A stretch of DNA of 64,000 nt from Plazaster borealis (taxonomy: Eukaryota > Echinodermata > Asteroidea > Forcipulatida > Labidiasteridae). The first letter of the stretch is position 1. The number at the start of each line of letters is the position of its first letter. The translations under genes and the position numbers were made by a program. Below are positions 2,229-57,049 of this stretch, piece by piece. Where the stretch lies: contig CM037464.1 of NCBI GenBank assembly GCA_021014325.1, positions 2,015,127 through 2,079,126 of the forward strand, read 5' to 3'. The notes below the pieces were generated by a model that was given only the letters and a program-made list of their open reading frames with translations, did no database searches and was not told where the DNA came from.

Positions 2229-2972
2229 GGGGTATAACTACTCCTGAAGGAAGGCTGCCTTCATCTGCTGGTGTCAACACTGCCTGGTAACCCTCACCGT
2301 TTGGTCCACCATGACTCCTGGCTTCCACAACTACCCCTTGTCGAGCAGAGAGCACCAGGGGCTGTCCACACATATGTGCCTGTCCGACTAGTCCACTCTC
2401 TGTATCAAATACCAGTCTGCTTTCCACCTTCTTCATTGCTTTCTGCCAAACTGGCGCGGGAGTAGGCCAGGGATCTTCTTCAGGGGGGATCGTTCTCCTA
2501 CAAACATCAGCCTCTCCCAACACTCGCGGAGGATATTCATCCCTAAAATACCATGCACCTTCTCTTTCTCCCAAGCCCTCAGGGTAGAATATTGCTCACG
2601 AATTACGAGTACCACCCGAGAAGTGATGACTTGACCAGCAGCGCAAACATCCGTCTCAAAGCACCCGATGTAAGGAATGGTTGCCCCGTTGGCAGAGACG
2701 AGAGCAAAGGGTTCTGGGATGTCTTGAAGCTTGAATCCCAAAGGCTCCAACCGCTGACGGAAATACTGCTCACCAACTGTAGTAACCTGGGACCCGGTGT
2801 CTAGGAGACAAGTAATTGGTACACTTGAAAACATAACTTTGACCGAAAAACACTCTCCTACGGTTTTCGGTTGTAACTTAGCATCTGCTATTCCTGTTGA
2901 GTCTGATGTCTCTACCTCCACTGTACGACTCCCTACTGTGGAGGGTTGCTGTTTAACACCGGCATCTGCATG
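2229..2972 (-). pseudogene. pro: gypsy pol: aspartic protease and linker, frame-broken
   Basis: The protease frame opens at 2972, just inside the end of gag and in the -1 frame relative to it. A DTGS active-site motif lies near 2790-2801, followed by the usual retroviral-type protease pattern ending in a GILGMNIL-like segment. The frame is lost in a six-C run at 2483-2488. Homology continues one frame away to another C-run at 2229-2232, where it shifts again into the RT frame. Each step is equivalent to one base missing. Either the copy is decayed or the assembly has homopolymer errors. Confidence 0.85.
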
Positions 2973-4189
2973 TTAGCCGTCGTCTGTTGATCTCTGTGTG
3001 ACACTTCATAAGGGTCAGGGGGGCTGTTGGGGTAGGACATTTGAGGCTGTCTGACTCCCTCTCTTCCTCTAGTCGTACCTCTATACGGACAGTTTCTTGC
3101 AAAATGGCCGCTGTATCCGCATGAGTAGCATGGACCTAATCGACCTGTTCTTGGGAAACCGCCATTCTGGAAATCCGAGTGTGGATTCTGCCGAGGGCCA
3201 GGCATAGGAATAGAGCTAGCAGCCGGTCGGGCAAGTTCTCTAACTGCTTGCACCACCCTCTCGCTCATCTCCCTCACTGCTCCCAGGATATCATCAGAAT
3301 TATTTCTTGAAAGCTGAATAGCCGACTGCTGTACCCGGGTTGCATCCACGGCACGTCCACGAGCTTCCTCTTGCCCTTCTCGTCTTATCCCATACTCTCG
3401 AAGTTCCCGAAAGGAGGTTATGCTGCCCCGCTCGTACATGTCTCTGCAAGTGTTCCTCATATATGTGTCGTTTAGTCCTTCTATGAGCTGTTCCGTCAAG
3501 GCCGAATTAGGGCTAGCGTACAACTTGGCATCTTTACGGGTGAGACGGAGGAATCGTTTCTCCAGATCCACAGCAAAGTCTCGGACACCTTCCCCTGGGC
3601 GCTGCCTGCGTTCAAGGAAGAGACGTTGTAGTTCACCCACAGCTAACTTCTCCCCATACGAATCTCTCAGGAAATCCAGAGCTTCATCAGTAGTTTGGCC
3701 ATCAGCAAGTAAAGCCTTCACTTCTAACTTAGGAACCCCACGGAGGTAATCTTTTAAGAAGGATCCTCTTTGGCCTACTGGGATGCTGTAACGCTGAAAT
3801 GCATCTATGATGTTGGACAGGAAGTCTCTAACCTCCCCAGGCTTTCCATCAAAAGGAGTGATCTTCCTCTCGGGAGCCATAACCAATTGCGTGCGGGGCT
3901 TTGACAGTAGTTCTACAAGCTTGTCCTCCAGCTTCAGCTTTGAATCACCTGCTGATTGGGTCTCTGGCAACAGGGGGGTGTAAATGCACTCTGTCCAGCC
4001 TCCTGGAGGTGGACCGACCTCATCTCCGTGTGATGGTACCACCATCATGCTGTCATCATCCTCGTATAATAAACCCTTCGCTTCAGGATAACCCGACTGT
4101 AAAAGGCTTAGAAGCAGAGACCCATCTTCTTCCACTAGGGGAAATTTACGTACACCTCCATGGCCTTTAACTTTGATGTATTCAACCAT
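2933..4189 (-). CDS. gag: gypsy gag polyprotein (418 aa)
   Basis: This is an uninterrupted 418-residue frame from the ATG at 4187-4189, the first in-frame ATG giving MVEYIKVKG. It has a long hydrophilic capsid-like region. Near the C-terminus, after a basic, proline-rich stretch, there is a single CCHC zinc knuckle (CYSCGYSGHFARNC). Gag packages the element RNA in virus-like particles in the cytoplasm. The stop overlaps the -1 protease frame, which fits translation of pol by frameshifting. The coding frame is intact while pol is not. Confidence 0.9.
   Translation of the reverse strand: MVEYIKVKGHGGVRKFPLVEEDGSLLLSLLQSGYPEAKGLLYEDDDSMMVVPSHGDEVGPPPGGWTECIYTPLLPETQSAGDSKLKLEDKLVELLSKPRTQLVMAPERKITPFDGKPGEVRDFLSNIIDAFQRYSIPVGQRGSFLKDYLRGVPKLEVKALLADGQTTDEALDFLRDSYGEKLAVGELQRLFLERRQRPGEGVRDFAVDLEKRFLRLTRKDAKLYASPNSALTEQLIEGLNDTYMRNTCRDMYERGSITSFRELREYGIRREGQEEARGRAVDATRVQQSAIQLSRNNSDDILGAVREMSERVVQAVRELARPAASSIPMPGPRQNPHSDFQNGGFPRTGRLGPCYSCGYSGHFARNCPYRGTTRGREGVRQPQMSYPNSPPDPYEVSHRDQQTTANMQMPVLNSNPPQ
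2951..2957 (-). promoter_or_regulatory. candidate -1 ribosomal frameshift heptamer GTTAAAC
   Basis: On the minus strand the gag frame reads G TTA AAC here, five codons before the gag stop at 2933-2935. Slipping back one base enters the protease frame, which is open from 2972. The overlap is about 40 bases. GUUAAAC is an established slippery sequence in equine arteritis virus, so the position and phase suit gag-pol frameshifting. I did not identify a downstream pseudoknot. Confidence 0.55.
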
Positions 4190-4448
4190 AATTACTGCTA
4201 ACACCTGTGGTGGCTTGAACTTTTAATTTTAACGAACAGGACTTGATGTTGATAGATTTGCAGAGATATTATGCAAATAATATGTATTAAACTTTAAAAT
4301 AATGGATATATAATAAACACAACACAGACTAAAATTCTTTATCCTGCAACAATAATGATCTCACGGAAAAAAGAGAAGCCTACCAAACTCTACCAACTTT
4401 AGTACTACTCAGTAAAAATTTCTTCTTAGTCCAAAAACGGTGCAAGAT

Positions 4449-5067
4449 TTCTCCTTTAAAAATGTCTTTAAACACTAAGACTTGTAGCAGTAGTCCCAAA
4501 ATCTTTATGGCACTCTTAAAATAATACACCTCAGACTTCTCCTTTAAAAATGTCTTTAAACACTAAGACTTGTAGCAGTAGTCCCAAAATCTTTATGGCA
4601 CTCTTAAAATTAATACACCTATCAGACTTTTCCTTAAAAAATGTCTTTAAACACTAAGACTTGTAGCCGTAGTCCCAAAATCTGTATGGCACTCTTAAAA
4701 TAATACACCTCAGACTTCTCCTTTAAAAATGTCTTTAAACACTAAGACTTGTAGCAGTAGTCCCAAAATCTTTATGGCACTCTTAAAATTAATACACCTA
4801 TCAGACTTTTCCTTAAAAATGTCTTTAAACACTAAGACTTGTAGCCGTAGTCCCAAAATCTGTATGGCACTCTTAAAATAATACACCTCAGACTTCTCCT
4901 TTAAAAATGTCTTTAAACACTAAGACTTGTAGCAGTAGTCCCAAAATCTTTATGGCACTCTTAAAATTAATACACCTATCAGACTTTTCCTTAAAAATGT
5001 CTTTAAACACTAAGACTTGTAGCCGTAGTCCCAAAATCTGTATGGCACTCTTAAAATAATGCACCCA
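4449..5067. repeat. Tandem repeat, seven copies of an 88-90 bp unit in alternating A/B types
   Basis: Seven copies each carry the core AATGTCTTTAAACACTAAGA followed by CTTGTAGC(A/C)GTAGTCCC. After a first A-type copy, A units (CTCCTTT, CAGTAG, CTTTATGG) alternate with B units (TTCCTTA, CCGTAG, CTGTATGG), so the later repeat is a dimer of about 177 bp. The array lies upstream of gag, in the leader or LTR of the retroelement. Confidence 0.9.
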
Positions 5068-8397: not shown

Positions 8398-8511
8398 TGG
8401 GGCTAGTTCACTCTGAGGAATGAGATTTTGGGTTTGGGTGCACAGAAATGACACACCCGTGATTCACAGAGGTAGGGGAAAGTAATACAAGTTTCCATAT
8501 GATTTGTGTTT

Positions 8512-8790
8512 GTATTGTATTGTATTGTATTGTAGTGTAGTGTAGTGTAGTGTAGTGTAGTGTAGTGTAGTGTAGTGTAGTGTAGTGTAGTGTAGTGTAG
8601 TGTAGTGTATTGTATTGTATTGTATTGTATTGTATTGTATTGTAGTTTAGTGTAGTGTAGTGTAGTGTAGTGTAGTGTAGTGTAGTGTAGTGTAGTGTAG
8701 TGTAGTGTAGTGTATTGTATTGTATTGTATTGTATTGTATTGTATTGTATTGTTTTATAGTGTAGTGTAGTGTATTGTAATGTATTGTAC
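8512..8790. repeat. Pentanucleotide microsatellite in alternating TGTAT and TGTAG blocks
   Basis: About 55 five-base units fall in blocks: TGTAT, a long TGTAG run, TGTAT, a second long TGTAG run, TGTAT again, then interrupted units. It lies in intron 1 of exonuclease gene 1. The equivalent place in gene 3, near 25105-25125, holds only two or three units. Confidence 0.95.
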
Positions 8791-9027: not shown

Positions 9028-12000
9028 ATGGACATCTCTGATCACCAACCAATTGAAGGGAGTGACGAGGCGGTTTCAGGCGGTGAGGAGACCAACAATG
9101 CACCGTAAGTTCCAATCCCCGCAAAAACATAAACCGTGCAAGTCTCGCGCGTATTTTATTTTATTTTTTAAATTGCTTTAGCGCGTGAAGGAAACAAACT
9201 CGCACGCTTTAACGGGTCACAAGGTTCGAATACGCACGAGACTTGCCCAGTCTATTGACTGCGATACAAGATAAAAGCAATATATTTAGATGCAAGAAGA
9301 CTCACAGAATTTGCGAGTTCAATTAAACGGAATGTGTTTTGGGGTGTTCCATTTCTTATTCATTCATTCAGTCAGTCAGTCATTAGTGGTTTATTAAACA
9401 ATTGTCATGTCTCCCTTTCACGCCGTATGTATGCTCTAGATCTTGACTCCAAACACATAACAATAATTGTAATAGATAACTAGACACACACATTTTTTAA
9501 CAGCCCCGTGGAGATCGATGGAGAACCCAAAGAGAAAGAGACTGCCGATTCGTCAGAGGAGAAATTGTCAGGTGGTGTCGCGGAGGCAGAGGGGGGTGAG
9601 AAGAGAAAATGTGGAGGTGCAGAAGCAGGACCTACATCGCCTTCTCTTGCTGCGAACCGTAGCTGTGAGTGGTTTTTTTTTTTCATAGACCGATCCTTAC
9701 AAAAAAGTCCTATAGGAATCATAGGAAAAATCCTATAGAATCCTATAGGATTTATCCTATAGAATCCTATAAGATTTATCCTATAGAATCCTATAGGATT
9801 TATCCTATAGAATCCTATAAGATTTATCCTATAGAATCCTATAGGATTTATCCTATAGAATCCTATAGGGTTTATCCTATAGGACTCCTATAGGATTCTT
9901 ATAGGTTTTTCGTCACTTCCTATAGGATTTATCTATAGAATTTCTATAGGATTCCTATAGGATTCCTATACGATTCTATAGGATTCCTATAAGATCCCTG
10001 TATGATTCTTATAGGATTCTTATATGATTTCCTATGGATTCTTATAGGATTTCCTATTGCTATAGAAATCCTATTGGAATCTTGTAGGATCCTATAGGAT
10101 TCCCATAGGAATTTTGTGTAAGGGGATACATTTTGTCTAACATTACCCGCCTATGAACGGCACACATGAGCCTCGCCATCGCCTGAGCATTTCCAACCAG
10201 GTTCCCTGTACATACCTAGCCAAAAGTATGTTATTGTTCCCCTACCCTACTACATGTGATAATCTCCCTACTAGCCTCTGTTTGAGCACACTGGATACAT
10301 CATTGAGAAAAACACAATGGCCGCACAATCGCAAACAAAACGCGTTAATATTGTTCTCGATCGAACGAGTGAACATTTGCGGCTGTGATCAATTATTATT
10401 AATCGGGGTTTGATTTATGTTGAAGGTCATCGATTTCATTTGAATATCCCAATTTTACAGGTGAAGAATTGGACGACGAGCGTTCGGCTACGAAGAAAAA
10501 CAAAACTGTCCCAACATCAGTGGAATTAAGGTATGAGCCCGAATTAATATTGCAAATAAAACCTTGTGAGGAGCATAATATATACAAATGTCGCATAAAA
10601 CAGACATGCACTTGAACTGTTACTCCCAGGTTAAAGGTGTTTTCCACTTACACCATTGAGCAACTTTTTAGTGTTTCATCTTCCACATACAGTGCTAAAC
10701 AGGCATTATGTATCTGTATCTGTACACGTGCAATCACCCATAGGGTTGTTGCCGTACTTTGTCAGGATCGGGTGTGCAGCAGTTAACTATTTGGATGGGC
10801 CTCTGAAGTTAGATTTGACATGTTAAGGGTGTCTAATTCGGCCTGCTGGGAATGTCTGGCATTGACGTGAGAGAAATGTAGTGTGTTATACGACAAGTTT
10901 CATTGGCCACCACATTGAGGACAGCTACGGTAATATTAAATCTTGGATTTTGGATTTGGAAGGATAGAGATTCATTTTAGTGTTCTGTTGTATTATACTT
11001 TCAGTTACGAGCTGGTGGAGGAAGATGTGCAAATACAGCCAGCCCTGAAGAAACTCCGTGCGCTTGGTAAAGGCTGCCCTCTCTTGGCCGTCGACTTAGA
11101 GGGGGACAGTCTCAACCGGAAGGGTAAGCTCTCCATCGTGTCAGTAGCAACGGAGAACGACACCTTCTTGTTCGACATTCAGAAGTTAGGAGCCGGGGTG
11201 TTCGACAAAGGCTTGCGGGATCTTCTTCAGGATCCAGGCCGTCAGAAGTTGATGTTTGACTGCCGTCAGGACTCTGACTGTCTCTGGCATCAGTACAACG
11301 TCAAACTGACCAATGTGCTGGATTTGCAATTAATGGAGGTAAACATAAAAGTGTGCGCAATTCCTGTATAACTTAACACGAGTTAGTGACTCTGATGTTG
11401 AGGGAACTGGGCGCGAACCAATCCTTATTGCAAAGCAAAGTGTGTTGTCACAGTACGAATCACTATTATTGACAACTCAAAGATGAATCTTGACCTCTTT
11501 GTGAAATCGGCCCCTAGTCTAATTCGTGTAGTACTCTTCTATGAACAGTCGTGATGTTAATATTTGATGCTTTTTAATTTGTTTAATTTTATACTTCAAC
11601 ACAAACCAATGCAGGTCATCTACCGAGGTGAGGCATCAACCCATCAACTGTTAAAACTTCATACAAATGATCAGATTTTAGATGTTCCCAGAATACTCGG
11701 CTTAAAGAAATGTCTGGAAAAGTACGTCAAAGATGACGATCTTATCAAGGCAAAGAAAGAAGTACAGCACTCGGCTGGCGTGTGGTTGACCCGACCGCTT
11801 GGCAGGTCATTTCTACGGTATGCTGCAGCCGATGTGATTGGTATGCTGCAGCTATATCGAGTATTATGGGATAAGTTCGAAAAAATGGGCGCCATGGAAC
11901 AACTGCGAGATGCTTCGAATAGATATGTCGATTTCTACCGGTTCAAAGGAGACCGTTCCTATGATATGTACGAAGGAAACCCATTTCTGCCTTGGCGTAT

Positions 12001-12304
12001 TTTCCAGAGCACTTATAACAAGGAAGTCCAGTGCAAGGGCTGCAAGCGCGATTTTCCAAGTGCGGACTTTTCAAATACTCAAAAGCGACAGAGGGTACAG
12101 AAATGCCCAGTCTGCAAGAAGGTTAAGAATGTGGAGGATGTAAGAGCAAATAGAGAGGATAACTGGAGTCGTAGAGACAACGACGATTCCGACAGTTACA
12201 GCGATTACGACACTTACGACGATTACGGCATTTACGACGAATACAACGATTACGGCGCCTACCATAGTAACGATGACGACTACAATGACTGTTGCATCAT
12301 GTGA
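9028..12304 (+). CDS. EXD1-like DEDDy 3'-5' exonuclease, gene 1 (443 aa, predicted CaaX-farnesylated)
   Basis: Coding exons are 9028-9104, 9504-9664, 10461-10530, 11005-11338 and 11615-12304, all with GT-AG borders. They total 1332 bases. Residues 1-102 form an acidic, low-complexity N-terminus. The exonuclease domain has Exo I D133/E135 (VDLEG), Exo II D192 (FDCRQDSDCL) and Exo III Y283/D287 (YAAAD). The full DEDDy set is therefore present, with an EXD1-type segment (HQYNVKLTNVLD) after Exo II. C354/C357 and C378/C381 make a zinc-knuckle-like pair. The tail (about 402-439) is Asp/Tyr-rich, and the protein ends CCIM, a CaaX box whose final Met favours farnesylation. Known family members bind or trim RNA, and mammalian EXD1 acts in the piRNA pathway, reportedly without catalysis. 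An RNase role at membranes is my inference. It is the first of three tandem paralogs. Confidence 0.9.
9705..10120. repeat. Palindrome-rich minisatellite based on CCTATAGG, intron 2 of gene 1
   Basis: Units of about 22 bp (ATCCTATAGAATCCTATAGG plus ATTT) repeat regularly from 9725 to 9880 and decay into scattered TATAGGATTC words up to 10120. Nearly every unit is self-complementary, so single strands could fold into many short hairpins. Introns 2 of genes 2 and 3 lack it. Confidence 0.92.
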
Positions 12305-15906: not shown

Positions 15907-16420
15907 TGGTGGCCCTGAAGGGACATCAAACATATATTTTTACGTGAATATTTACGTAAATATTCACGGTTTTTGCCCTAAATCGCAAATATTCACGTAA
16001 ATATTTGCGATTTGTGCCCCAATCGCTTATATTTACGTAAATATTCACGGATTGTGCCCCAATTCGCAAATATTTACGTAAATATTTGCGATTGGGGCAC
16101 AAATCGTGAATATTCACGTAAATATTTACGTGAATATTTGCGAATTTGGGCACAATCCGTGAATATTTACGTAAACATTTGCGATTGGGTGCACAAATCG
16201 CAAATATTTCCGTAAATATTTCCTTAAATATTTGCGATTGTGCCCCAATTCGCAAATATTCACGTAAATATTCACGTGAATATGTGCGATTGGGGCACAA
16301 ATCGTGAACATTCACGTAAATATTTACGTGAATATTTGCGAATTGGGGCACAATCCGTGAATATTTACGTAAATATTCACGTAAAAATATATGTTTGATG
16401 TCCCTTCAGGGCCACCATAC
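15907..16420. mobile_element. Long-TIR foldback element packed with ACGTAAATATTCACG palindromes
   Basis: The ends are near-perfect inverted repeats of about 63 bp, starting TGGTGGCCCTGAAGGGACAT and running through ATATATTTTTACGTGAATA. The interior is an array of AATATTCACGTAAATATTTG-type palindromes separated by GATTGGGGCACAA spacers in both orientations. TA lies at both outer borders. There is no transposase. All reading frames across it are low-complexity by-products. Confidence 0.88.
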
Positions 16421-18249: not shown

Positions 18250-21200
18250 ATGGACCTCGTTGTCTTCGAAGTATATTTGAAAGAGGGTGACGAAGCGGTT
18301 TCAGGAGGTGAGGAGACTAACAACGCAACGTAAGTTCCAATCTCAAGTACGTTATTTGACTGCGATACAATATAAAAGCAGTACATCTAGATGCAAGAAG
18401 ACTCGAAGAATTTGCCTGTTCAATTAAACGGAATGTGTTTTGAGGTGGTCCATTTCTTATTCATTTATTCATTCATTAATGGTTTATAAAAAAAATACAT
18501 ATCGCGGCATCAGCCGAATATCAAGTAAATTAACAATAGGGTGTCGTGGCCGAGCGGTTTAGAGCATCGAATTCAAGTTCTGGTGGTTAAGTCATCAGGG
18601 TGTGGGTTCGAATCCCGATCATGACACTTGTGTCCTTGAGCAAGACACTTAACTATAATTGCTTCTCTTCACCCAGGGGTATAAATGGGTACCTGCGAGG
18701 GTAGAGGTTGATATTGTGTTTGAAAAAAGCCTCCGGAGCGCCACGGCAGCTCGGGGCTGTATACTCCCCAGCGAGCTGAGAAAGATTAAAAAGGAATGTT
18801 TTTTGGCCCAATGACCAGGGCACTAATGTAAAGCGTATTGAGACGTTATTATAAAATGCGCTATAAGACACGTTCTTATTATTATTAATAAAAGTACAAA
18901 ATTGAAGAAGTCACAATGAAATAACAACAAATAAATAATTAAAAACAACAATTTATCAAAAGTAAGAGTAACTTTATGCTTGGTGATGATACCAGTGTTT
19001 GACATCACAATGAAGAGCTAAGATTGATATTAACATCTAAGCAAAGTGTGATGTCACAATACAAATCACTAATAATGGTAATACTGACAGGAACTCATCT
19101 TAAGCTGAAGCTATAGTGCTTTGTGAAATCCATCCATAATTGGACGACAATGATGACGATTTATGGGGACACATCCCCAAACCAAACCATCTCCCATAAA
19201 GCTTCTTGTACTTATCCATGCACTTTGGAACTGATTTTTAGAAAGTCTCCACTGTGTGTTGGAGTATGGGGGGGGGGTGATAACGAAAGTGTTGGTGTTG
19301 GTGACGAGGCAGATATCATGTATTCTTTTTTTCAAGCCGTATGTATGCTCTCGATCTTGACTTCAAATAATAGTTTTAATAAATAATGAGACACATATTT
19401 TTATCAGCTCCGTGGAGATCGATGGAAAACCCAAAGAGAAAGAGACTGCCGAATTGTTAGGGGAGAAATTGTCAGATGGTGTCGCGGAGGCAGAGGGGGG
19501 TCAGAAGAGAAAAGATGGAGGTGCGGAGGCAGGACCTTCATCGCCTTCTCTTGCTGCGAACCGTAGCTGTGAGTGTTTCATTTTTGTTGACAAATCAGTC
19601 GTGATAGTGTTTCGTCTCCCCATGCCCCCCCGTCCATTGACCGATACATTTTGTTTAACAGTACCCGCCTATGAGGGGCACATGAGCCTCGCCATCGCCT
19701 GAGCATTTCCAACCAGGTTCTTTGTATACTTAGCCTAAAAGACTATCAGTCCCCTGCCAGCCTCTGTTTGAAAACGCGTAAAATCTTGTTCTCGATTGGG
19801 CTGTAATTGATCAACCCTATAGGGAGCCTTACTAGTTGTAGCGAACAGTATTTTTTTGCATTTTTGTTAATTACTCCCTTCATGCAAGATAAAAAAACAA
19901 ATCCTTCTATGATATCCTCAATTGTACCTTCAAGAAACATAGTGGACAATTTGACTGGCCATTCATTTTCCAGATGAAGAATGCTTGGACGACTTGAGTT
20001 CCGATACGGAGAAAAGAGAAACTGCCTCAACATCAGTGAAATTAAGGTATGAGTCCAAATTACATGCAAATAAAACCTTTGTGAGGAGCATATTATAAAT
20101 AATTATGAGATATAACAAATTCGCATAAAACAGACATGCATATGGACTGTTATACACCAGTCCTTCACCGATATTGAACTCTTGGTGGCAGCAGACACGC
20201 CTCAATTACTGCGGTGGTACCTGGGTGGTACTGCGCTGCCTAGCGATGGGCTTAAGGGCTGGGCTACACTAGTTAATGTATAAATGGTTATATGTAAGTA
20301 ATGGTTGTTTATAAATAATAGTTACATAAGTGGCAAGGTCGTACCACCGCAGTACCATCGCAGCGTGTCTGCTGCCACCAAGAGTTCAAGATCGGTGAAG
20401 GATTGGTGTATATATACCATACCCACAGCAACCGTGAGCAACACATGAGCTGGACAGGCATTCTGTATCTGTTTCTGTACACGTACAATCATCCATGGGA
20501 TTCTTGCCGTACGAGGTCAGGATCGAGTATGCAGCAGTTAAATATTTGACATGTTTAGAGTGTCTAAAAGGCCATCCACACTAGGGCAATTTACAGGCAA
20601 CCAGTTTCAGGCAATCTTTAAGAAGTAAAGGTCATTTACATTTCAATTTGCACATGGAAAAATAACTCCTGTGCTGCCAAAGTGTTCCTTTTACATGCAG
20701 CGCAGATGGCTGCCTCTAATATAAGTTGCCCCAAGAAACTTTCTAGTGGCCCTAAGGCCTGCTGGGAATGTCTTGGCATTGACGAGAGTTCAAAAGAGAA
20801 AGTGTGTTATAAGACAAGTTTCATTGGATACCACGTACCAGGAAAGCTACGTTATTAATAAATCTTTGGATTTTGGATTTGGAAGGATAGAGATTCATTT
20901 TAGTGTTCTGTTGTATTATATTTTCAGTTACGAGCTGGTGGAGGAAGAGGAGCAAATAGAGCCAGCCCTGAAGAAACTCCGTGACCTGGGTGAAGGGCTC
21001 CCTCTAATGGCCGTTGATTTAGAGGGGGAAAATCTCAGCCGGAAGGGTAAGCTCTCCATCGTGTCAGTAGCAACGGAGAACGACACCTTCTTGTTCGACA
21101 TTCAGAAGTTAGGAGCCGGGGTGTTCGACAAAGGCTTGCGGGATCTTCTTCAGGATCCGGACCGTCAGAAGTTGATGTTTGACTGTCGTCAGGACTCAGA

Positions 21201-22526
21201 TTGTCTCGCGTATCAGTACAAAGTCAAACTGACCAATGTGCTGGACTTACAATTGATGGAGGTAAAAAACAAATTGTGCGCGATTGTTTCCCGCAGAACT
21301 TAAAACAGTTAGTAACTCTGGTGTTGAGGAAACTGGTCCCATGCGTGATTTATTGCTTTTTTATGGACTCGTCAAACATTTGGTTCAACAAACAAAATGG
21401 CGGACCGTGTTAGTCCCTGAAATAAAAGGAAAACCACACAATTTCGGTGGATATTTGTGTGGATCATTGTGCTCTACTTTTAAAACATCTCTCCAACCAT
21501 ATTCATTTTTAGAAGATACTATAAATAAATTGTAAACTTGCGGGTAAACTTGCTCCCGAAGACGAGCACAGTATACTTTTCGAAAAGGTCGAGACACACC
21601 GGCTCTTTTTCAGAGCCAACACTCCCACAAAAGAGAGTTACACACGGTTGTACCGGCAAGTTCACTATTTATTTATAGTTTCTTCCTATTTATCCACACC
21701 ATGCAAAGCTTCAAACAATTACATATTCATTTTACACTAAACGCTTTTCTTTTGCACAATGCGCCCAATCCGAAGGCAATGTGTCCGTTTAATACTGCCA
21801 AGAAAGATGTTTCGATGATGATTGTTTTATATTCAACACAAATCATTGCAGGTCATCTACCGAGGTGAGGCATCAGCCCATCAACTGTTAAACCTTCGTA
21901 AGGATGACCAGGTTAAAGATGTTCCCAGAGTACCCAGCTTTCAGAATTGTCTGGAAAACTACGTCGAAGATACAGATCTCATCAAGGCAAAGAAAAAAGT
22001 ACAGCACTCGGCTGGCGTGTGGTTGACCCGACCGCTTGGCAGGTCATTTCTACAGTATGCTGCAGCCGATGTCATCGGCATGCTGCGGTTATATGGGGTA
22101 TTGAGGGAAAAGGTCGAAAAAATGAGCGCCATGGAACAACTGCGAGATGCTTCGAATAGATATCTCGATTTCTACCTGTTCAAAGGACGCCGTTCCTATA
22201 ATATGTACGAAGAAAACCCATTTCTGCCTTGGCGTATTTTCCAGGGCACTTATAGCAAGGAAGTCATGTGCGTGGGCTGCAAGCGCTTTTTTCCCAGTGC
22301 GGACTTTTCAAATACTCAAAAGCGAGAAGGGGTACAGAAATGCCCAGTCTGCAAGAAGGTTAAGAATGTGGAGGATGTAAGAGAAAATAGAGAGGATAAC
22401 TGGAGTCGTCGACGATACCGCAACGATTACGACGATTACAACTATTACGACCATTGCGACGACGATTACGAGTGCTATGGCATGTATGGTAGCGATGACG
22501 ATTACAATGACTGTTGCGTCATGTGA
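18250..22526 (+). CDS. EXD1-like DEDDy 3'-5' exonuclease, gene 2 (440 aa, predicted CaaX-farnesylated)
   Basis: Exons are 18250-18329, 19408-19568, 19974-20046, 20928-21261 and 21852-22526, totalling 1323 bases with the same intron phases as gene 1. The first exon differs from those of genes 1 and 3 (MDLVVFEVYLKEGDEAVSGG). Exo I (VDLEGE), Exo II (FDCRQDSDCL) and Exo III (YAAADVIGML) are intact, as is the CxxC...CxxC pair (CVGC ... CPVC). The tail is again Asp/Tyr-rich but has a different sequence (DYDDYNYYDHCDDDYE) and ends CCVM, a CaaX box also found on human PTP4A3. Intron 3 carries a MITE. The start of intron 4 is nearly identical to gene 3 and unlike gene 1. Confidence 0.9.
18537..18895 (+). 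mobile_element. tRNA-derived SINE family S1, full-length copy
   Basis: The head has tRNA-like promoter boxes: A box TGGCCGAGCGG and B box GGTTCGAATCC. The body includes ACTTGTGTCCTTGAGCAAGA and GCGCCACGGCAGCTCGGGGC. The tail is ATGCGCTATAAGACACG followed by TTATTATTATT. It lies in intron 1 of exonuclease gene 2. Confidence 0.9.
20151..20412. mobile_element. MITE with 44-bp inverted ends in intron 3 of exonuclease gene 2
   Basis: The left end TATACACCAGTCCTTCACCG continues through AACTCTTGGTGGCAGCAGAC. Its reverse complement closes the element at 20369-20412 with few mismatches. The terminal TATACACC/GGTGTATA suits a TA target. Genes 1 and 3 lack it at this position. Confidence 0.88.
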
Positions 22527-25243: not shown

Positions 25244-33165
<7,922 letters not shown>

Positions 33166-33338
33166 GGAGGAGAACTGGAGTCGTAGCGATGACAATGACA
33201 ATGACTGTTGCGTCATGTGAACATAGCCAATCAGTGCCAGTAAAGTAGTGTGAATTAGATGCGCCAAACCACTCTGCCATGACACACCACTTGTTAAAAT
33301 ATCAATAAGATATGATTGATAACCGATGCAAACCATGG

Positions 33339-47541: not shown

Positions 47542-48021
47542 AGATGAAGATTAGAGCTAAGTGTTTATCGTGATGACACTTTAATAAAAGAGATACTTTG
47601 CGCATGCCTACATATCCCGGATCTCATACATCACATGTAGTAGTTTGAGTAGGGCGCCCTCGGCTAGAGGCCAAAAGAAGGGAGCTCATTGGTCCATCCT
47701 GTGCGCCGCGCGTACTAAGATGTGCGTTTTCCATCGTTGTATGATAGATTTACCTCTAAGATGGCGGCGTGATGACGTCAATGCATAAGGTATATTGCTG
47801 TTTATAAGAATGAACTAATAGTGCCGATGTTTACATTTACAACTGAAGTCATATACAGGTTGAAACGACACTTACATCAAAGGAATAGTAATAAAACAAT
47901 GTCAATGTTTGTCTTGATTTGTTAAAATGACAAAACATTATAATGTGCGAGCATAGTTGAAAAATATTCGAAATTTGATCTAAAAGCTACATTACTAGTC
48001 ACTTTTCTTGCTTTGATTAGT

Positions 48022-48765
48022 TTACAGTTCAAAGAAGGAGCAGCCCTCCATGTTCTTGAAATCAGTGACGTCAGCCTCCAGGCGGGATGCGCTGTTAAGC
48101 TGACATATCTTACCCGGCTTCCAGAGATTGAAGGAGAGGCATCGAGGCTCCGCCCAGCACGCCTGACCACACCCAATGACTCCCTTGGCTGTCAGGTTCT
48201 TGATATTATGGTTGAGCAGACACTGTGGAGTGAAGTGACCATCATCGTCAGCTGTCAGGCAGTACACGGGATGAGGGACGCGCATCTCACAAGCAGCGAA
48301 CTGGGTATTGGAACAACCGGTATCTGACCATTTACCGTTGTACTTTTGTCGCATTCTGACGCAGTCCTGGCCTTCGTCATCATAATGATGGTCCTTCCAA
48401 TAAGTGTAGTCGGAATCAACTTTCTTACCAGGACATGACAGTTGTCCAGGATTGGTCAGATCTTTCTTGCACCCAATCCAAAGTTCAAATGGATCGGGGT
48501 CCACGAGACCCTGTTGTATCTTCGGTGTAGTCATTTCTCGCCAAATAAATTCTTGTTCTTTTTGAGATTCAGGCATAGCCATGGCGCTTCCAGGACGATC
48601 ACAAACCCTGAACGCATCGAACAAATTCATCTTCTGAGGCAGTAAGATGTAGCAGGAGTCTTGCCAAGTCAACCAGTCGGGAGGACACATGGCTCGAAGC
48701 CCCACAAAGAAAACGGCGAAAAGTAAAAAGCACGATTTGTTTATGCAAGCTGTGAATACCAACAT
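48022..48765 (-). CDS. Secreted C-type lectin with PAN/apple domain, L1 (247 aa)
   Basis: A single exon. Residues 1-25 are a signal peptide ending VGLRA. The C-type lectin domain spans about 26-160 (C27, C38, C55, C99, C111, C135, C151, C159), with the WIGC hydrophobic core. A PAN/apple domain follows at 168-247 with seven cysteines (C169, C182, C199, C203, C209, C221, C242) and a sequon at N190. The usual EPN/QPD sugar motif is missing: that loop reads YWKDHHYDDEGQDC, and WND is WSD. Carbohydrate binding is thus uncertain and the ligand unknown. Such proteins commonly act in extracellular recognition. The start gives the signal peptide and matches the other copies. The ligand loop is the KDHHY type on flank type A. 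Confidence 0.95.
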   Translation of the reverse strand: MLVFTACINKSCFLLFAVFFVGLRAMCPPDWLTWQDSCYILLPQKMNLFDAFRVCDRPGSAMAMPESQKEQEFIWREMTTPKIQQGLVDPDPFELWIGCKKDLTNPGQLSCPGKKVDSDYTYWKDHHYDDEGQDCVRMRQKYNGKWSDTGCSNTQFAACEMRVPHPVYCLTADDDGHFTPQCLLNHNIKNLTAKGVIGCGQACWAEPRCLSFNLWKPGKICQLNSASRLEADVTDFKNMEGCSFFEL

Positions 48766-49454
48766 ACTGGTACCTTATTGTAGACACGTTTCTTTTGCAA
48801 AGAAAATGACAAATCAAAAGTCAGAAGCTCTCGTTTTTTCGGTCTTTGAATGAAGCCAAGTTCAGCCAGATACATTCACGATGTCAACACAAATTTGACG
48901 ATTGTGTGCCGTGTTGATCACTATTATGGCGTTTTCATTCGCCTACTGCATGCAGTCGCTGACAAACCGATGCTACGATGAACAATTTCTAACCTTCAAC
49001 TTGATGTTGATACAAATATATACGTGCAGCGGGAATTAATTTGGAATGACCACTATCCATTATCCAAGACGTTGCTTAGTGACATTACTTTGTTTCCAAA
49101 CGAAATTACGGAGTGCATTCGCTACTTAAGCTAATTGCTAAAAATAGAGATGGAAATTCAGACAATCTGCATACACAATACTCATTACGACTATTGCAAT
49201 GACAGTGACGTCAATCAGAAACATGGAATCGGTTTCTACAAAGGCTGGTGCTGTTGGAATTGAAATAAGCCCGATATGAACAGTGCACAAAAACAAAACA
49301 TAACTCGATTTATTGTCAGAAAAACTCACACGTGAACATTACCTTTGAAATCCGAGCTAATAAAAAAGTAGATATCCAAACAATATCTTGACATGATTTG
49401 ACAGTATGAATTATGTGCATCATAAACGGGTTGATACCAAGATATCTTGATTTG

Positions 49455-49600
49455 GTGTTGAACAAAGAAACATTATCAAGAGTGGAATTTGAACCAACGA
49501 CCTCCGTATTAACGTGCTGGTGCTCTACCAACTGAGCTATCTAGCCCTATGTTGGCGGTCTCCCTATTTTATCAATATCTTTGTTCGGGTGCCAGTCAGA
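49455..49600 (-). mobile_element. tRNA-derived SINE family S3
   Basis: The minus strand reads AGATAGCTCAGTTGGTAGAG (D arm and A box) and GTTGGTTCAAATTCC (B box). The acceptor stem does not pair and the anticodon stem is poor, so it is not a working tRNA gene. The equivalent flank of lectin L2, near 53750, lacks it. Confidence 0.75.
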
Positions 49601-51492
49601 AGCCATGCAATCGTTAGTTGCCGTGTAGCCAGGGACCACACCCAAGTTTACGATACAACCAGGGATAACAATGAATTTATTATCCGTCTTCATTTTTGAA
49701 TCAATAAAATAGCTATTTAGTGTATATTCTTATTAAAACACTAACAATAAAATAAAAGATGGAAACATTAAGACATTTGACCAATGGATGAAGTTTATGT
49801 TGAATGAAAGGTCAGTGCGTTATTACAATGGCTTAAGTTAACCTGTACGCCACTGGACCACCCAGCCGATACCATGTAGCACGCGATAGAAGAAAACGCT
49901 CACCAGCTTGTGTTTGGAGAAAAACAAAAAGGAACATCAACATAAAACTAGATAGTCATTGGTACACGCGTTGGTAAAGTCAATGGCAATCGTTTCTATA
50001 TAGATCATTTTTAATTTCACAGTTGACTTGTAAAATATGAACACTAATGATGATGAAATATTATTGCTCTTACCAAAACCACGCCCATTTGCAACCAAAT
50101 TATGACACTGTCAAAATATAATGCCCTAGCAATCAGTATTTGATGCCACGTGAGAAAGCCTTCAAAAACTATGTGCTCAATTAAACCTTAAAATAATCGC
50201 CATAAAAATTACCGGTAGCCATTAACGAGTTGCCCTTACTATCCCGGTGGACTTTTTTTATCAGTTTTGAACTTGAAATAATCTGTTATTAAATGACAAT
50301 ATTCACAAAAAGGACAATAACTGTACGTAAATAACAAGCCTTGGGTATCTTTTGAAATTTGATCCATGATTCTAGTTATTTACTGCAAGGGTCTTGATAA
50401 CTAACTCGAGCTGTGCAGGGACTAGAGGTTTAAACATAACGTGTATGCTAAATTTCTGAAACAATCAGCAACGATTGGGTCAAATACGCTTTCAGCTGTC
50501 AGGTTGTTGTAGTGGTATCTTTCCTCGCCTTCAACCTCTGGGACCCTGGTTCAAATCCCACCGGGGGCACTATGTGGATTGGGTTTTCAGTCCCTACCTG
50601 ACTGGGTGGGTTTTCCCTGGAAGAATTCTCCGCAATTTTCCTCCCATATCTAAAACTGAAATTTCCTTTATTGTCTTCTCTCCATTGGGTTCTTGGCTAG
50701 TAATAATATACCGGTAGTGATTAAGTTCGCTTTTCTAAGAGTCCCTGGTTTCACAACCAGACTTAATAAATGAAATACGTCTATGAACTTATTTGCTAAT
50801 TTATGGTAAGCATTATTTTCCTAGTCGTTGCTGAGTAATATTACATAAACAGGTTAACATTATTCGCTGCTACTCCAGCAGTCTTGATTGGTGACGCTGT
50901 TTTTGTTGTATAAGTCACCGGTTAGAGGGCGCAACATCAACTGTTCGGGATGCTGACTCGGAGGGACTGGGCAAGTCTATAATTTTGGATCGAGATGTTT
51001 CTATGATACAGATAGCTCTTCTCCAGTAATTCTTGTTGCGGACAGTAACAAAATGAACGTCGCCAATCAAGACTACTACTCCAGACAATCGTACTCAAAA
51101 ATAGCTGGAAATTCAGACCAATTGTATACACATTATTATGACTGATGCAGTGCTTGTGACGTCATGAGAATTAATGAAAGGTGCTGCAAAAAAACTGTTA
51201 AAAAATTATTACATTGGGCCTGGGATCAATGGCAATTTGTTAATAATAAAGTATTCGGGCAACTTACTCTTGAAAATCTAATTAAAATTGGTGCTCAATA
51301 TCTAATGACATATTACAGGATTGATAATAAATTATAGAAAACTGATTAGAAACTTCTTTTCATTGCAGCTTCAAAAAGCAACTTTACTTCTGTTCGAAAA
51401 CATTGTTGGCATAAAGAAACACAAGAGGTGTTTGAAGAATCGTTTGGTATGTTGCTCCAGCTTTATTAAGGTCCCAAAAGAACTGGCCAGGC
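49601..51492. other. Upstream flank of lectin L1, type A
   Basis: No gene. Homologous in order to 53760-54560 (upstream of L2) and 63230-64000 (beyond L6). Markers include GATGGAAACATTAA, CAATCAGCAACGATTGGGTC and TTTGCTAATTTAT. A SINE S2 copy interrupts it. Confidence 0.7.
50490..50765 (+). mobile_element. tRNA-derived SINE family S2
   Basis: The head has GGTTGTTGTAGTGGTATCTT (A box) and CCTGGTTCAAATCCCACC (B box). The body reads ATTGGGTTTTCAGTCCCTAC and the end TCCCTGGTTTCACAACCAGA. It sits after CAACGATTGGGTCAA, where the L2 flank at 54125 is uninterrupted. Confidence 0.88.
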
Positions 51493-51860
51493 TTAAAGGT
51501 ATCGTACAAATTTGGTAATTACTCAAAACAAATATTAGCATAAAACTTACTTGGCAACAAGCAACGGAGAGCTGTTGATAGTATAAAACATTAGGAACGA
51601 CTCCCTCTGAAGTAACGTAGTTTTTGAAAAAGAGGTAATTTCTCACTAAAATAATAAAAACTTCTTGCAAGAAGTTTTTATTCCTATCTGAAAGCACACA
51701 AATTTGTACAACAAAGGTGTTTTTTCTTTCATAATTTTCTTGCAACTTCGATGACCAATTGAGCCCAAATTTTCACAGGTTTGTTATTTTATGCATATGT
51801 GGGATACACCAAGTGAGAACACTGGTCTTTGAAAATTTCCAAACGTGTTCAGTGCATTAA
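51493..51860 (-). mobile_element. MITE M1, copy G
   Basis: A full reverse copy with ends TTAAAGGTATCGTACAAATT and the inverse of TTAATGCACTGAACACGTTT, and the central ACTTCTTGCAAGAAGT palindrome. Confidence 0.87.
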
Positions 51861-52328
51861 GGAACGTCGTCGATCAAACGGCTCCCATTATGGTATCGCT
51901 ATTATTAACATGTTAATTATTATTGATGTTAGGACTGTAAACAAAACCCGTTTCAAAGAAATTCCACTTGATTTTCGATATGATGTCATTGTTTCAATTT
52001 CAAATCACACTAACAAAATAAAAACTATAATGATAAATAAAATAAAAACATATACTAACACAATACAGGTTATGTGCTTTGTCGAAGCTACGGTTGTGAC
52101 AACAATATTATTTAAAAATTAATATTAAACGTTAGAATAAAGTCCAGATTGTAGTGACAAAACTTGTAAAATATTTGACACTGTAGAATTTAGTTTTTCC
52201 TTTGTATATGTGGTTAAAAATACTCATAATGTTAATGGTAATTGAAATTGTTGATGAGTACCTGGTCACATTCATGGACAATCAAATCGTAATCGTAAGC
52301 ATGTCCAATCGTACTTGATTTGTTCATT

Positions 52329-53072
52329 TCACAGTTCAAAGAAGTAGCAGCCCTCCACGTTCTTGAAATCAGTGACGTCAGCCTCCAGGCGGGATGCGTT
52401 GTTAAGCTGACATATCTTACCCGGCTGCCAGAGATTGAAGGAGTGGCATCGAGGCTCCGCCCAGCACGCCTGGCCACACCCAATGACTCCCTTAGCCGTC
52501 AGGTTCTTGATCTCATGGTTGAGCAGACACTGTGGAGTTAAGTGACCGTCGCCGTCAGCTGTCAGGCAGTACACGGGATGAGGGACGCGCATCTCACAAG
52601 TAGCGAACTTGGTAGCAGAACAAAAGCTATCTCCCCATTTACCGTTGTTTTCTGGTTTCATTCTGACGCAGTCCTGGCCTTCATCCTGATAATGGCTTCC
52701 CTCCCAATTAATGTAGTCAGAATCAGCTTTCTTACCAGGACATGACATTTGTCCAGGATTGACCAGATCTTTCTTGCACCCAATCCAAAGTTGAAATGAA
52801 TCGGCGTCCACAAGACCCTGTTGTATCCTCAATGTATTCATTTCTCGCCAAATAAAATCTTGTTCTTTTTGAGATTCAGGCATAGCCATGGCGCTTCCAG
52901 GACGATCACAAACCCTGAACGCATTGGTCCAATTCATCTTCTCAGGCAGTAAGATGTAGCAGGAGTCTTGCCAAGTCAACCAGCCGGGAGGACACATGGC
53001 TCGAAGCCCCACAAAGAAAACGGCGAAAAGTAAAAAGCACGATTTGTTTTTGCAAGCTGTGAATACCAACAT
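52329..53072 (-). CDS. Secreted C-type lectin with PAN/apple domain, L2 (247 aa)
   Basis: Same single-exon layout and cysteine pattern as L1. The 5' flank is nearly identical to that of L1 for over 600 bp, so the two share a recent duplication. The lectin loop differs: residues 79-95 read NTLRIQQGLVDADSFQL, and the distal loop reads YINWEGSHYQDEGQDC ... KWGDSFC. There is no EPN or QPD motif. The PAN domain has two sequons (N190, and N224 in LNNAS). It ends VEGCYFFEL. This WEGSHY loop type is shared with L6. Confidence 0.95.
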   Translation of the reverse strand: MLVFTACKNKSCFLLFAVFFVGLRAMCPPGWLTWQDSCYILLPEKMNWTNAFRVCDRPGSAMAMPESQKEQDFIWREMNTLRIQQGLVDADSFQLWIGCKKDLVNPGQMSCPGKKADSDYINWEGSHYQDEGQDCVRMKPENNGKWGDSFCSATKFATCEMRVPHPVYCLTADGDGHLTPQCLLNHEIKNLTAKGVIGCGQACWAEPRCHSFNLWQPGKICQLNNASRLEADVTDFKNVEGCYFFEL

Positions 53073-54860
53073 ACTGGTACCTTATTGTAGACACGTTTCT
53101 TTTGCAAAGAAAATGACAAATCAAAAGTCAGAAGCTCTCGTTTTTTGGTCTTTGGATGCAGCCAAGTTCAGCCAGATACATTCACGATATCCACACAAAT
53201 TTGACGATTGTGTGCCGTGTTGATCACTATTATGGCGTTTTCATTCGCCTACTGCATGCAGTCGCTGACAAACCGATGCTACGATGAACAATTTTTAACC
53301 TTACACTTGATGTTGATACAAAGATATACGTGCAGCGGGGATCAAATGGAATGACCACTATCCATTATCCAAGACGTTGCTTAGTGACATTACTTTGTTT
53401 CCAATGACCTTAAAAAACGAAATTACGGAGTGCATTCGCTACTTAAGCTAATTGCTAAAAAATAGAGATGGAAATTCAGACAATCGGCATACACTCATTA
53501 CGACTATTGCAATGACAGTGACGTCAATCAGAAACGTGGAAGTGGTGCTACAAAGGCTGGTGCTGTTGGAATCGAAATAAGCCCGGTATGAACAGTGCAC
53601 AAAAACAAAACGTAACTCGATTTATTGTCAGAAAAACTCACACGTGAACATTATACCTTTGAAATCCGAGTTAATCAAAAAGTAGATACCAAACAATATC
53701 TTGGCATGCCTTTGACAGAATGATTTCTGTGCATCATAAATGGACTAATACAAAGATATTTGGATAACAGTTAACTTATCATCAGTCTTCATGTTTATAT
53801 CAATAAAACAAATATAATTTAGTATCATCGATTCTTATTAAAACGCTTAAAGATGGAAACATTAAAGACCTTTCACAATGGATGAAGTTTATTTTGAATG
53901 AAAGATCAGTGCGATATTATAATGGCTTACAGATCACGTGTAATAATAGGCCCCTTGCATATGACGTCACGCTCTAAAACAGCGCCCTCACTGAAGCAAA
54001 AGAAGGCAGATCACTGGACGATAGCTGTTCTTGGTGCGTAAACACGTGCGCGTGACCTCAGCGTCCCTGTAGCGTTTCGAGTTATGCAAGGGGTCTATCT
54101 TAACAAAAAACCCTAAACAATCAGCAACGATTGGGTCAAGGACGCAATTGGACTAATTGGCTAATTTATTTATGGATCATTATAATAATGTGTATACAAT
54201 TTTGTCTGAATTTCCAAATAATCTTTTTAGCATGATTGGATGGAATAGCAGCGACTAATGTTAACCTGTCTACTTAGCAGCGACTGTAGTCGTTGATAAG
54301 TTGCTACTCCAACCAACCAATCATACTAAACATATTTGGAAATTCAGTCAAATTGTATACACATTATTATGACTGATGCAGTGCTTGTGGCGTCACGTGA
54401 GAACCATTGAAAGGTGCTAAACAAATCTGTAAGATATATTGGTAAAAGGCTAATCAAGTGTTCGGGCAACTAACTCACGAAAATCTAAGTAAAAATTGGT
54501 GCTCATTATTTATTGACAAAATTACAGGGTTAATAATAAATGAGAAAACTGATAAGAAATGTTGTTTTTGTCGTTGTCTTTAAACCTAAATAATGACTTT
54601 GCAAAAGTTGTTGGTTTCAAAAACAAAGGCAACGCGTTAAAAAAATAGAAAAAAGGGTCTATGTTATGATTAAATTTCCGAAAACCCCCCAAACAAACAA
54701 TTTAACATAAAATGTCCAATGTTTTTGACACAAGTATAAGTAAATGAGACCTCTAGTCCATTCTAATGTTTAAGTTGAGAGATAATTCCGATGACGTAGC
54801 TGTGTATTGGTTTCATCTAATGACAGTTACAGTTTAAGAGAGAGAGGAATAGTTAACAAA
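53073..54860. other. Upstream flank of lectin L2, type A
   Basis: No gene. Paralogous to 48766-51340. It contains TGACGTCA-like words near 53518, GCGTGACCTCAGCG near 54050 and AATGTGTATACAATT near 54190, which also ends the window. Confidence 0.7.
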
Positions 54861-54956
54861 GTTCTTCAAATCAATGATGACGCAGAATTCCCCGAATGCA
54901 AGACAAAGGAGGAGTGGTAAGTAGGCTCCGCCCATCACGCCTGACCACACCCAATG
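54861..54956 (-). pseudogene. Relic of a lectin PAN domain, R1
   Basis: Plus-strand GTTCTTCAAATCAATGATGA and GGCTCCGCCCATCACGCCTG (then ACCACACCCAATG) match antisense PAN codons. The 33-base block over CGQACWAE is almost unchanged. The rest is decayed. It heads a repeated block of about 300 bp that runs to L3. Confidence 0.7.
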
Positions 54957-55150
54957 TTTGCATCGGTCACTAGTAGGCCAGTAATCCGAATCAATTAATA
55001 GCGAGCAGTCACGATCATGTTTCTTACTTTCCTGTTTTCATTATGAAGTTAAAAGATCTGAGTTGAGAGTCACGGTTGTTATTAGCACAAATAAATGAGT
55101 AAATCTAGCGTAACACCGTAAAAGCTAAACCCACTTCACCAAAACAGACG

Positions 55151-55389
55151 CGGTGTAGTCATTTCTCGCCAAATAAAATCTTGTTCTTTTTGAGATTCAG
55201 GCATATGGCGCTTCCAGGACGATCACAAACCCTGAACGCATCGAACCAATTCATCTTCTGAGGCAGTAAGATGTAGCAGGAGTCTTGCCAAGTCAACCAG
55301 CCGGGAGGACACATGGCTCGAAGCCCCACGAAGAAAACGGCGAAAAGTAAAAAGAACGATTCCTTCATGCAAGCTGTAAATACCAACAT
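55151..55389 (-). pseudogene. Truncated lectin L3: signal peptide and first half of lectin domain only
   Basis: The first 80 or so codons match L1-L6 (MLVFTACMKESFFLLFAVFF). A four-base deletion near 55203 shifts the frame within SAMAMPES. At 55151-55154 the gene stops abruptly: CGGT is shared between the lost lectin sequence (TTCGGTGTAGTC) and the downstream block (GACGCGGTAGTGATG). This is consistent with a microhomology deletion of about 0.8 kb. The PAN domain and second half of the lectin domain are gone. Flank type B, as for L4. Confidence 0.9.
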
Positions 55390-56044
55390 ACTGGTTTTAT
55401 TATCCGTTGTCTCAATTCCTTTGTAAAGAAATGAACAAATCCAAAGTCAGAAGCTCTCGTTTCTTCGGTCTTTGAATAAAGTCAAGTTCAGCCTGATATT
55501 AGCTCAAGATGTCCAGTCACATTGAAGATTGTGTGCTGAGTGGATCGCTACCATTGGCTTCACTGTATATGAAACTGTTATGCTACAAGGTGCATTTTAT
55601 TACTACAATGGCTTGCTAGTCACGGCTATTATGCCATATAATTTTTGTATTGGTAATTTGCATTTTTGTTTTACGCATGATGAATACGACACTATTCCAC
55701 AACGGCCCATTTAACTTAGCTTGGGATTTAGCACGCTTTGTTTAGAACGTCGTTGCTAAGCAACATTTCATTTAATAGTTTGGTCTCTAGGAACATGTCC
55801 ACCGGAAGGGAGCAATACCAAGAGATCTGAATAAATTATAACCGATCGTCAAGGCTCTACTCTGTTGTTTCAATAATATATGTGAGTCTTCAAAAAACGG
55901 CCTTGGAATGGATCACGTATAACTGAATTTTAAAAAAGAAAAATCCGTTTATGTTAAAAAATGTTGGTAAGCAATTCCGGGTAAAATTCCATTACGAAAA
56001 AACATCAAAATTGTCTTAACTGTCATAACAAAAAACTTCCGTTC
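55390..56044. other. Upstream flank of L3, type B
   Basis: No gene. Matches the DNA upstream of L4 (58473-59100), with markers such as CAATTCCTTTGTAAAGAAAT, CACGCTTTGTTTA and CTTGGAATGGATCACGTATA. Confidence 0.7.
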
Positions 56045-56420
56045 TTAAAGGCACTGAACACGTTTGGAAATTGTCAAAGACCAGTGTTCTCACTTGGTGT
56101 ATCCCAACATATGCATAAAATAGCAAGCCTGTGAAAGTTTGGGCTCAATTGGTCATCGAAGTTGCAAGAAAATGATGAAAGAAAAAACACCCTTGTTGTA
56201 CAAATTTGTGTGCTTTCAGATAGGAATAAAAAAACTTCTCGCAAGAAGTTTTTATTATTTTAGTGAGAAATTACCTCTATCTCAAAAACTATGTTACTTT
56301 AGAGGGAGTCGTTTCCTACAATGTTTTATACTATAAACAGCTCTCCGTTGCTTGTTATCAAGTAAGTTTTTATGCTAATATTTGTTTTGAGTCATTACCA
56401 AACGTGTACGATACCTTTAA
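56045..56420 (+). mobile_element. MITE M1, copy H
   Basis: Full length, with ends TTAAAGGCACTGAACACGTT and ACGTGTACGATACCTTTAA. It is inserted in the L3 upstream flank. The L4 flank has no copy at the matching point near 59105. Confidence 0.88.
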
Positions 56421-56980: not shown

Positions 56981-57049
56981 TTTGCATCGGTCACTAGTAT
57001 GCCGGTAATCCGAATCAATTAATAGCGAGCAGTCACGATTATGTTTCTT

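Follow-up and report, generated by a model that had tools for sequence, protein, structure and literature searches.

The window analyzed here, the whole stretch of 64,000 nucleotides, contains three genes in tandem that we read as recent duplicates of one another, most likely in a sea star, as judged from the relatives. Each would encode a DEDDy 3'-5' exonuclease of the EXD1/RNase D kind that carries a CxxC...CxxC module toward its C terminus. This description is part of a wider interpretation, developed below, in which we place slightly better than even confidence as a whole. Each of the three genes was modeled with five exons, as follows.

9028-12304, forward strand: gene 1, whole model, 443 amino acids
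9028-9104, forward strand: gene 1 exon 1, model, with ATG start and GT donor
9504-9664, forward strand: gene 1 exon 2, model, bounded by AG and GT
10461-10530, forward strand: gene 1 exon 3, model, bounded by AG and GT
11005-11338, forward strand: gene 1 exon 4, with Exo I (AVDLEG, D133/E135) and Exo II (D192) of the DEDDy domain
11615-12304, forward strand: gene 1 exon 5, with Exo III (YAAADV, Y283/D287), the CxxC...CxxC module, a D/Y-rich tail, CCIM, and the stop
18250-22526, forward strand: gene 2, whole model, 440 amino acids
18250-18329, forward strand: gene 2 exon 1, model
19408-19568, forward strand: gene 2 exon 2, model
19974-20046, forward strand: gene 2 exon 3, model
20928-21261, forward strand: gene 2 exon 4, exonuclease domain
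21852-22526, forward strand: gene 2 exon 5, with exonuclease domain, CxxC module, tail, CCVM, and the stop
25244-33165, forward strand: gene 3, whole model, 387 amino acids
25244-25317, forward strand: gene 3 exon 1, model
25543-25700, forward strand: gene 3 exon 2, model
26126-26204, forward strand: gene 3 exon 3, model
31985-32318, forward strand: gene 3 exon 4, exonuclease domain
32647-33165, forward strand: gene 3 exon 5, open to the TAG at 33163-33165, with no tail and no CaaX box

The models of genes 1 and 2 are intact open reading frames, and all of their introns start with GT and finish with AG. The protein encoded by gene 3 stops right past the CxxC module (CPVCRMIYKKK). BLAST segments covering the gene regions, introns included, are 77 to 91% identical, and the copies are therefore young. 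Strong tandem repeats lie at 4445-5065, 8511-8789, 9708-10110, 15946-16385, and 29884-30021; among them are a perfect (TAA)46 repeat and, within intron 2 of gene 1, a TATAGGAT-type array. Two tRNA-like, SINE-type copies on the forward strand are intronic, one (18543-18665) in gene 2 and the other (26410-26531) in gene 3; they are 84.6% identical and carry gtggccgagcggt...gggttcgaatcccg, and their assignment to SINEs was made by eye.

Genes 1 and 2 match the Pfam family PF01612 (E values of 7.6e-21 and 4.4e-19; 75.1 and 69.4 bits, against a curated cutoff of 23.6). Both carry the DEDDy residues, and in gene 1 an alignment with relatives shows these catalytic positions to be intact (AVDLEG at 131, FDCRQD at 187, and YAAADV at 283), with D192 of FDCRQD being chosen as the Exo II residue by reading of the alignment. 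The domain is followed by a C-x2-C...C-x2-C arrangement whose four cysteines are at least 90% invariant in a 42-member alignment of proteins from sea stars, bivalves, cnidarians, and other sources, and this module is probably zinc binding. At an E value of 0.001, PF01612 was the sole Pfam domain in genes 1 and 2, a setting at which a diverged Lsm fold could be missed, and NCBIfam gave only subthreshold matches to RNase D and polymerase.

The closest solved relatives by sequence are Egalitarian, Bombyx EXD1, and Trypanosoma RNase D. Egalitarian and EXD1 are about equal as the best PDB sequence matches, with the exonuclease-like domain of Egalitarian at the top (E value of 1e-15). For the fold comparison, the query was the AlphaFold2-predicted structure of P0003, a relative from Asterias rubens (mean pLDDT of 78.9), a model that covers the exonuclease domain and has no tail resembling those of genes 1 and 2; parts of its N terminus (residues 1-53 and 58-67) fall below a pLDDT of 50, and the sequence there is unlike that of gene 1. 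The best Foldseek match of this model is Trypanosoma brucei RNase D (7c42, E value of 9.4e-15, together with related entries), and matches to Exd1 reach E values down to 2.1e-13. By query length, the TM-scores are 0.47 for Trypanosoma RNase D and 0.43 for EXD1, with rmsd values of 9.4 and 11.7, and the match is therefore one of the domain only and not of the full chain.

Numerous relatives carry the database name EXD1-like, and the initial annotation had likewise described the array proteins as EXD1-like exonucleases. As a statement of sequence likeness, this appears fair in view of the PF01612 match and the DEDDy residues; it does not by itself place them in EXD1 proper, which is the piRNA factor. 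EXD1 proper has an N-terminal Lsm/Sm-like domain, and EXD1 has been described as catalytically dead. The solved EXD1 (5fiq and 5fis), which we take to be the Bombyx protein, has a DEDD-family exonuclease fold like the array proteins; however, it reads AVSGDG, with S and D replacing the Exo I D/E, where the array proteins keep AVDLEG. In addition, the match of the profile to this EXD1 spans only positions 11-171 and does not take in the CxxC module. Mouse EXD1 is a partner of TDRD12 in piRNA biogenesis, and a review table assigns "3'-5' exonuclease activity" to it (PMC4982230). RNA is the presumed substrate of the array nucleases.

Inspection of the letters confirmed what had first been noticed at the ends of these genes. 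Gene 1 terminates in CCIM (12290-12304, forward strand, TGT TGC ATC ATG TGA) and gene 2 in CCVM (22512-22526, forward strand, TGT TGC GTC ATG TGA), and the codons for CCVM are also present in gene 3, one frame off, in a stretch at 33206-33220 (forward strand) whose 15 bases are those of gene 2. The alignment of the copies reveals a net 14-base deletion in gene 3, which puts CCVM out of frame, and for this reason gene 3 has neither tail nor CaaX box in its own frame. Its TAG is separated by 52 bases from the out-of-frame TGA, and the frame that contains CCVM has just 23 open codons ahead of that TGA.

Given the intact five-exon frames and GT-AG introns of genes 1 and 2, their C-terminal ends are credibly coding. 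The true C terminus could nevertheless lie elsewhere if the last exon were spliced past the stop or ended differently, in which case CCxM would stay untranslated. A GTAAGA hexamer within exon 5, at 12140 in gene 1 and at 22377 in gene 2, speaks for such an arrangement. However, this hexamer encodes the V-R of a DVR.NRED stretch, and it is read as coding because the reading frame of relatives runs on through it, with DVQQNRKD in Asterias P0002 and DVQINRED in both the scallop protein P0011 and the coral protein P0084. As the frame is, moreover, unbroken as far as the stop in genes 1 and 2, we regard an alternative C terminus as very unlikely.

A strict CaaX end on a single gene is an uncommon match by chance. 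Across the six frames of the window, a strict motif (C-x-[VILMT]-[MSQAC]) precedes the stop in 8 of 5270 stop-ended frames, and a loose motif does so in 99. Three of the eight strict cases are the copies in genes 1 to 3; since the last exons of the three copies are 88 to 89% identical over aligned bases, these represent one event counted three times. The rarity of the motif argues against the main alternative considered here, namely, that young duplicates under weak constraint match CCxM by accident; they would encode soluble or hardly expressed nucleases, and the box would be invisible to selection even if it is sometimes prenylated.

That the frames of genes 1 and 2 are held open also speaks against such an accident. 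The two genes differ at 161 coding positions, with no stop in either, and the exonic gap columns between them number 3, 0, 3, 0, and 15 in exons 1 to 5, respectively. When 161 random substitutions were placed in gene 1, a mean of 6.7 stops arose and only 0.0003 of 3000 trials were stop free; with 80 substitutions, the mean was 3.5 stops and the stop-free fraction was 0.027. The amino acid constraint on the two genes is weak. The dN/dS ratio between genes 1 and 2 is 0.82 overall, with values of 0.63 for the exonuclease domain, 1.46 for the N-terminal part, 1.02 for the CxxC module, and 0.47 for the tail. Among the three copies, it ranges from 0.82 to 0.96 (0.92 to 0.96 for the pairs with gene 3), these being simple pairwise estimates that cannot tell relaxed selection from diversifying selection. 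With ratios this high, the copies may be near neutral and the CaaX box without consequence, as an accidental match would have it. Gene 3, with its frame open to the CxxC module and the ratios given above, may be a working soluble, tail-less paralogue or an early pseudogene. The end of gene 3 (31985-33165) directly after the CxxC module resembles that of the tail-less Patiria and Acanthaster proteins.

CCIM and CCVM conform to the farnesyltransferase motif, with a cysteine at -4, an aliphatic a2, an accepted X, and no acidic residue in the box. The 11-residue linkers in front of them, AYHSNDDDYND in gene 1 and GMYGSDDDYND in gene 2, were judged by eye to fit the requirement for small or flexible hydrophilic residues. 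A methionine at X favors farnesyltransferase. As described in PMC1175975, the motif needs a linker that is flexible, small or hydrophilic, and a negative charge within the box is incompatible; PMC10320760, which does not name CCIM or CCVM, gives a2 and X as the chief determinants. Because box and linker fit these enzyme rules, the products of genes 1 and 2 would probably be farnesylated on the first cysteine if they are expressed and translated. Double geranylgeranylation of the two adjacent cysteines, as in Rab proteins, was considered and rejected, as GGTase II acts on Rab with an escort protein (PMC1175975).

The likeness of CCVM to the CaaX box of human PTP4A3 (PRL-3), to which the initial annotation drew attention, holds: PMC2635958 reports that PRL-3 carries CCVM and that C170 is required for its membrane localization. 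The terminal tetrapeptide is identical to that of gene 2; PRL-3, however, is a tyrosine phosphatase, whereas the gene 1 and gene 2 products are of the exonuclease type with an acidic tail. PRL proteins have a basic stretch upstream of the CaaX box, and during CaaX processing the second cysteine leaves with the cleaved aaX. In the tail of gene 1, 15 of 40 residues are acidic and 2 are K/R; for gene 2, the counts are 12 of 35 and 4. No second membrane signal was found in these tails, that is, no polybasic stretch and no neighboring palmitoylation cysteine. Since the tail is acidic and a second signal is lacking, firm membrane tethering of the two products appears doubtful, and a single farnesyl on an acidic tail would fit a reversible association better than a firm anchor.

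This bears directly on the proposal of the initial annotation that CCxM is a functional anchor held by selection. In the form considered here, a farnesyl-tethered exonuclease would degrade RNA at membranes in the manner of OAS1 p46 and ZAP-L. The good box and linker argue for such an anchor, as does the combination of fast protein evolution with tandem duplication, which is usual in defense genes; the acidic tail without a second signal and the fact that gene 3 does without the box argue against it. OAS1 p46 and ZAP-L have folds other than that of a DEDDy exonuclease. They act on RNA and are localized via a prenylation motif, so that the array proteins resemble them in outline only, and they are human proteins whose targeting has been tested, whereas targeting of the array proteins is a prediction only. 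The precedent of prenyl-targeted RNA defense proteins favors an anchor; PMC7756014 describes prenylation directing OAS1 p46 to mitochondria and ZAPL to endolysosomes. In the open-license PMC literature, we found no paper on EXD1 and prenylation and none on a prenylated protein with an exonuclease domain and a CaaX motif. Nor did a broader search of the same literature bring up a paper that was evidently about a prenylated exonuclease of the EXD1-like family, and EXD1 in echinoderms gave no useful lead there.

The 132 relatives whose C termini were compared are the union of 27 of 27 matches of one search and 120 listed of the 132 matches in a wider search, which scored 7991 candidates. One sequence was taken per 90%-identity cluster, and this sampling hides other isoforms; the cluster of P0003, for example, has 4 members. 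Among the matches listed, one per cluster, none of the 132 relatives ends in a strict CaaX, which is in line with an accidental match. A cysteine at -4 is present in 14 of these 132 listed relatives, and a loose CaaX is present in 3 (P0062 with CDCC, P0079 with CSCH, and P0117 with CKVV), with the cysteine of CKVV being the last cysteine of the CxxC module of P0117. Likewise, the 11 named sea-star proteins among the matches listed all lack a strict or loose CaaX, a finding that weighs against a selected anchor. When the query was the last 96 residues of gene 2, the search yielded 10 candidates and a single match, P0002.

In the tree, genes 1 to 3, P0001, and two Asterias proteins form one clade with 100/100 support, the inner branching of which is open. 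The two Asterias proteins, the A. rubens piRNA biogenesis protein EXD1-like (P0003) and an uncharacterized Asterias amurensis protein (P0002), have the same architecture as the array proteins and are 74% and 67% identical to gene 1, respectively, over the matched part. Unlike genes 1 and 2, they end in short acidic-aromatic tails without a CaaX box (CDEYYEDPLF in P0003 and NRESDYDF in P0002; both records are isoform X2). Other relatives have an acidic-aromatic tail, almost none, or in some cases a cysteine-rich tail. The tails of the relatives thus differ and none has a strict CaaX, and the box therefore looks like a lineage-specific addition. By the reckoning of the initial annotation, related orthologues without a terminal CaaX would count against its proposal, and this is largely the situation among the sequences reached, the nearest Asterias proteins included. 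The remaining clade member, P0001, whose source has a longest contig of 3,724 bases, ends in HMYSSD where gene 2 reads GMYGSDDDYNDCCVM, just short of the position of the box. It would thus either lack a box or be a record that is incomplete at its end, and a box beyond the recorded end could make the CaaX older than proposed here.

The reason given in the initial annotation for selection had been that CCxM is conserved at the very end while the tail before it diverges. Sliding windows, a neutral simulation, and the tandem-repeat nature of the tail do not support it. In the three-way alignment of the last exon, 1 of the 15 columns of the CCxM block is variable. Of the 525 stretches of 15 columns without gaps, 224 are conserved equally well or better; with 12-column stretches, 281 of 541 have at most 1 variable column. 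The block is identical at 14 of 15 positions between genes 1 and 2, at 14 of 15 between genes 1 and 3, and at 15 of 15 between genes 2 and 3, even though the copy in gene 3 is untranslated, and the 15 columns just before it are identical at 14, 12, and 13 positions for the same pairs. In a neutral simulation of 20000 runs, in which the ancestor was assumed to end in CCVM, the fraction of runs in which the two copies each retained a strict CaaX with its stop was 0.34, 0.22, and 0.14 at divergences of 0.113, 0.157, and 0.20. The simulation, the many equally conserved stretches, and the equal conservation of the out-of-frame copy are all points in favor of an accidental match, and the lack of any excess conservation over the rest of the exon is a point against a selected anchor. 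Conservation of CCxM between the copies is mostly uninformative on selection, the likeness of young paralogues being weak evidence of it in general.

As to the tail itself, it is indeed variable, but it consists in part of tandem repeats:

12180-12254, forward strand: tandem-repeat stretch with periods of 9 and 18, acidic D/Y-rich tail of gene 1
22423-22462, forward strand: tandem-repeat stretch with a period of 9, part of the tail of gene 2

Slippage in these repeats would suffice to explain the changes in the tails of genes 1 and 2. Just past the block, 11 of 13, 10 of 14, and 11 of 13 of the compared positions in 15 columns are identical for genes 1 and 2, 1 and 3, and 2 and 3, respectively, and over 45 columns past the stop the corresponding values are 34 of 40, 27 of 44, and 26 of 40. 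The 15 columns directly flanking the block on each side thus come nearer to it in conservation. The post-stop sequence is less conserved than the block, most clearly in the comparisons with gene 3. This is the sole result that leans toward selection, telling against an accidental match and for a selected anchor, and room therefore remains for past selection on the end.

Taken together, we find it somewhat more probable than its negation that CCxM is a CaaX box of recent origin, restricted to one lineage and borne by fast-evolving duplicates, and that this box is probably farnesylated if the genes are expressed and confers a weak, reversible association. The common ancestor of the three copies would have ended in an acidic stretch followed by DCCVM (or DCCIM), and genes 1 and 2 would retain this ancestral box. 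Gene 3 would have lost tail and box from its frame through the net 14-base deletion and would now end like its tail-less sea-star relatives. Where genes 1 and 2 are expressed, farnesyltransferase would modify the first cysteine of the box, and the single farnesyl would mediate weak, reversible association with membranes or with prenyl-binding partners. An accidental match, on the evidence given above, is a serious possibility that falls well short of an even chance, and a selected functional anchor is fairly unlikely.

If a young CaaX box of this kind were confirmed, the array would offer a DEDDy exonuclease that is prenylated as well as a clear example of a lipidation signal that arose and disappeared again among tandem copies. 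A bolder form of this idea is that in one sea-star lineage a fast-evolving exonuclease of the EXD1/RNase D type with a zinc-type module became farnesylated and membrane associated and that a sister gene of the array turned soluble on losing the signal. We consider this quite improbable; if true, gene duplication would have produced a pair of anchored and free defense nucleases, a division that in OAS1 falls to isoforms differing in whether they carry a CaaX box.

Two other features of the window are of note. At 2936-4222 on the reverse strand lies a retroelement gag-like open reading frame of 429 amino acids, with a CCHC zinc knuckle just over the cutoff and a subthreshold PNMA match. Its N-terminal part matches the TDP-43 N-terminal domain (PF18694; E value of 1.5e-9, 38 bits against a cutoff of 27.1), and a search of the open-license PMC literature turned up no paper that evidently dealt with such a pairing of a TDP-43 N-terminal domain with a Gag protein or retrotransposon. 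At 47900-62100 on the reverse strand is an array of six C-type lectin open reading frames, of which five end in GCSFFEL or GCYFFEL and the sixth is partial; the two that were tested contain Lectin_C together with PAN_1.
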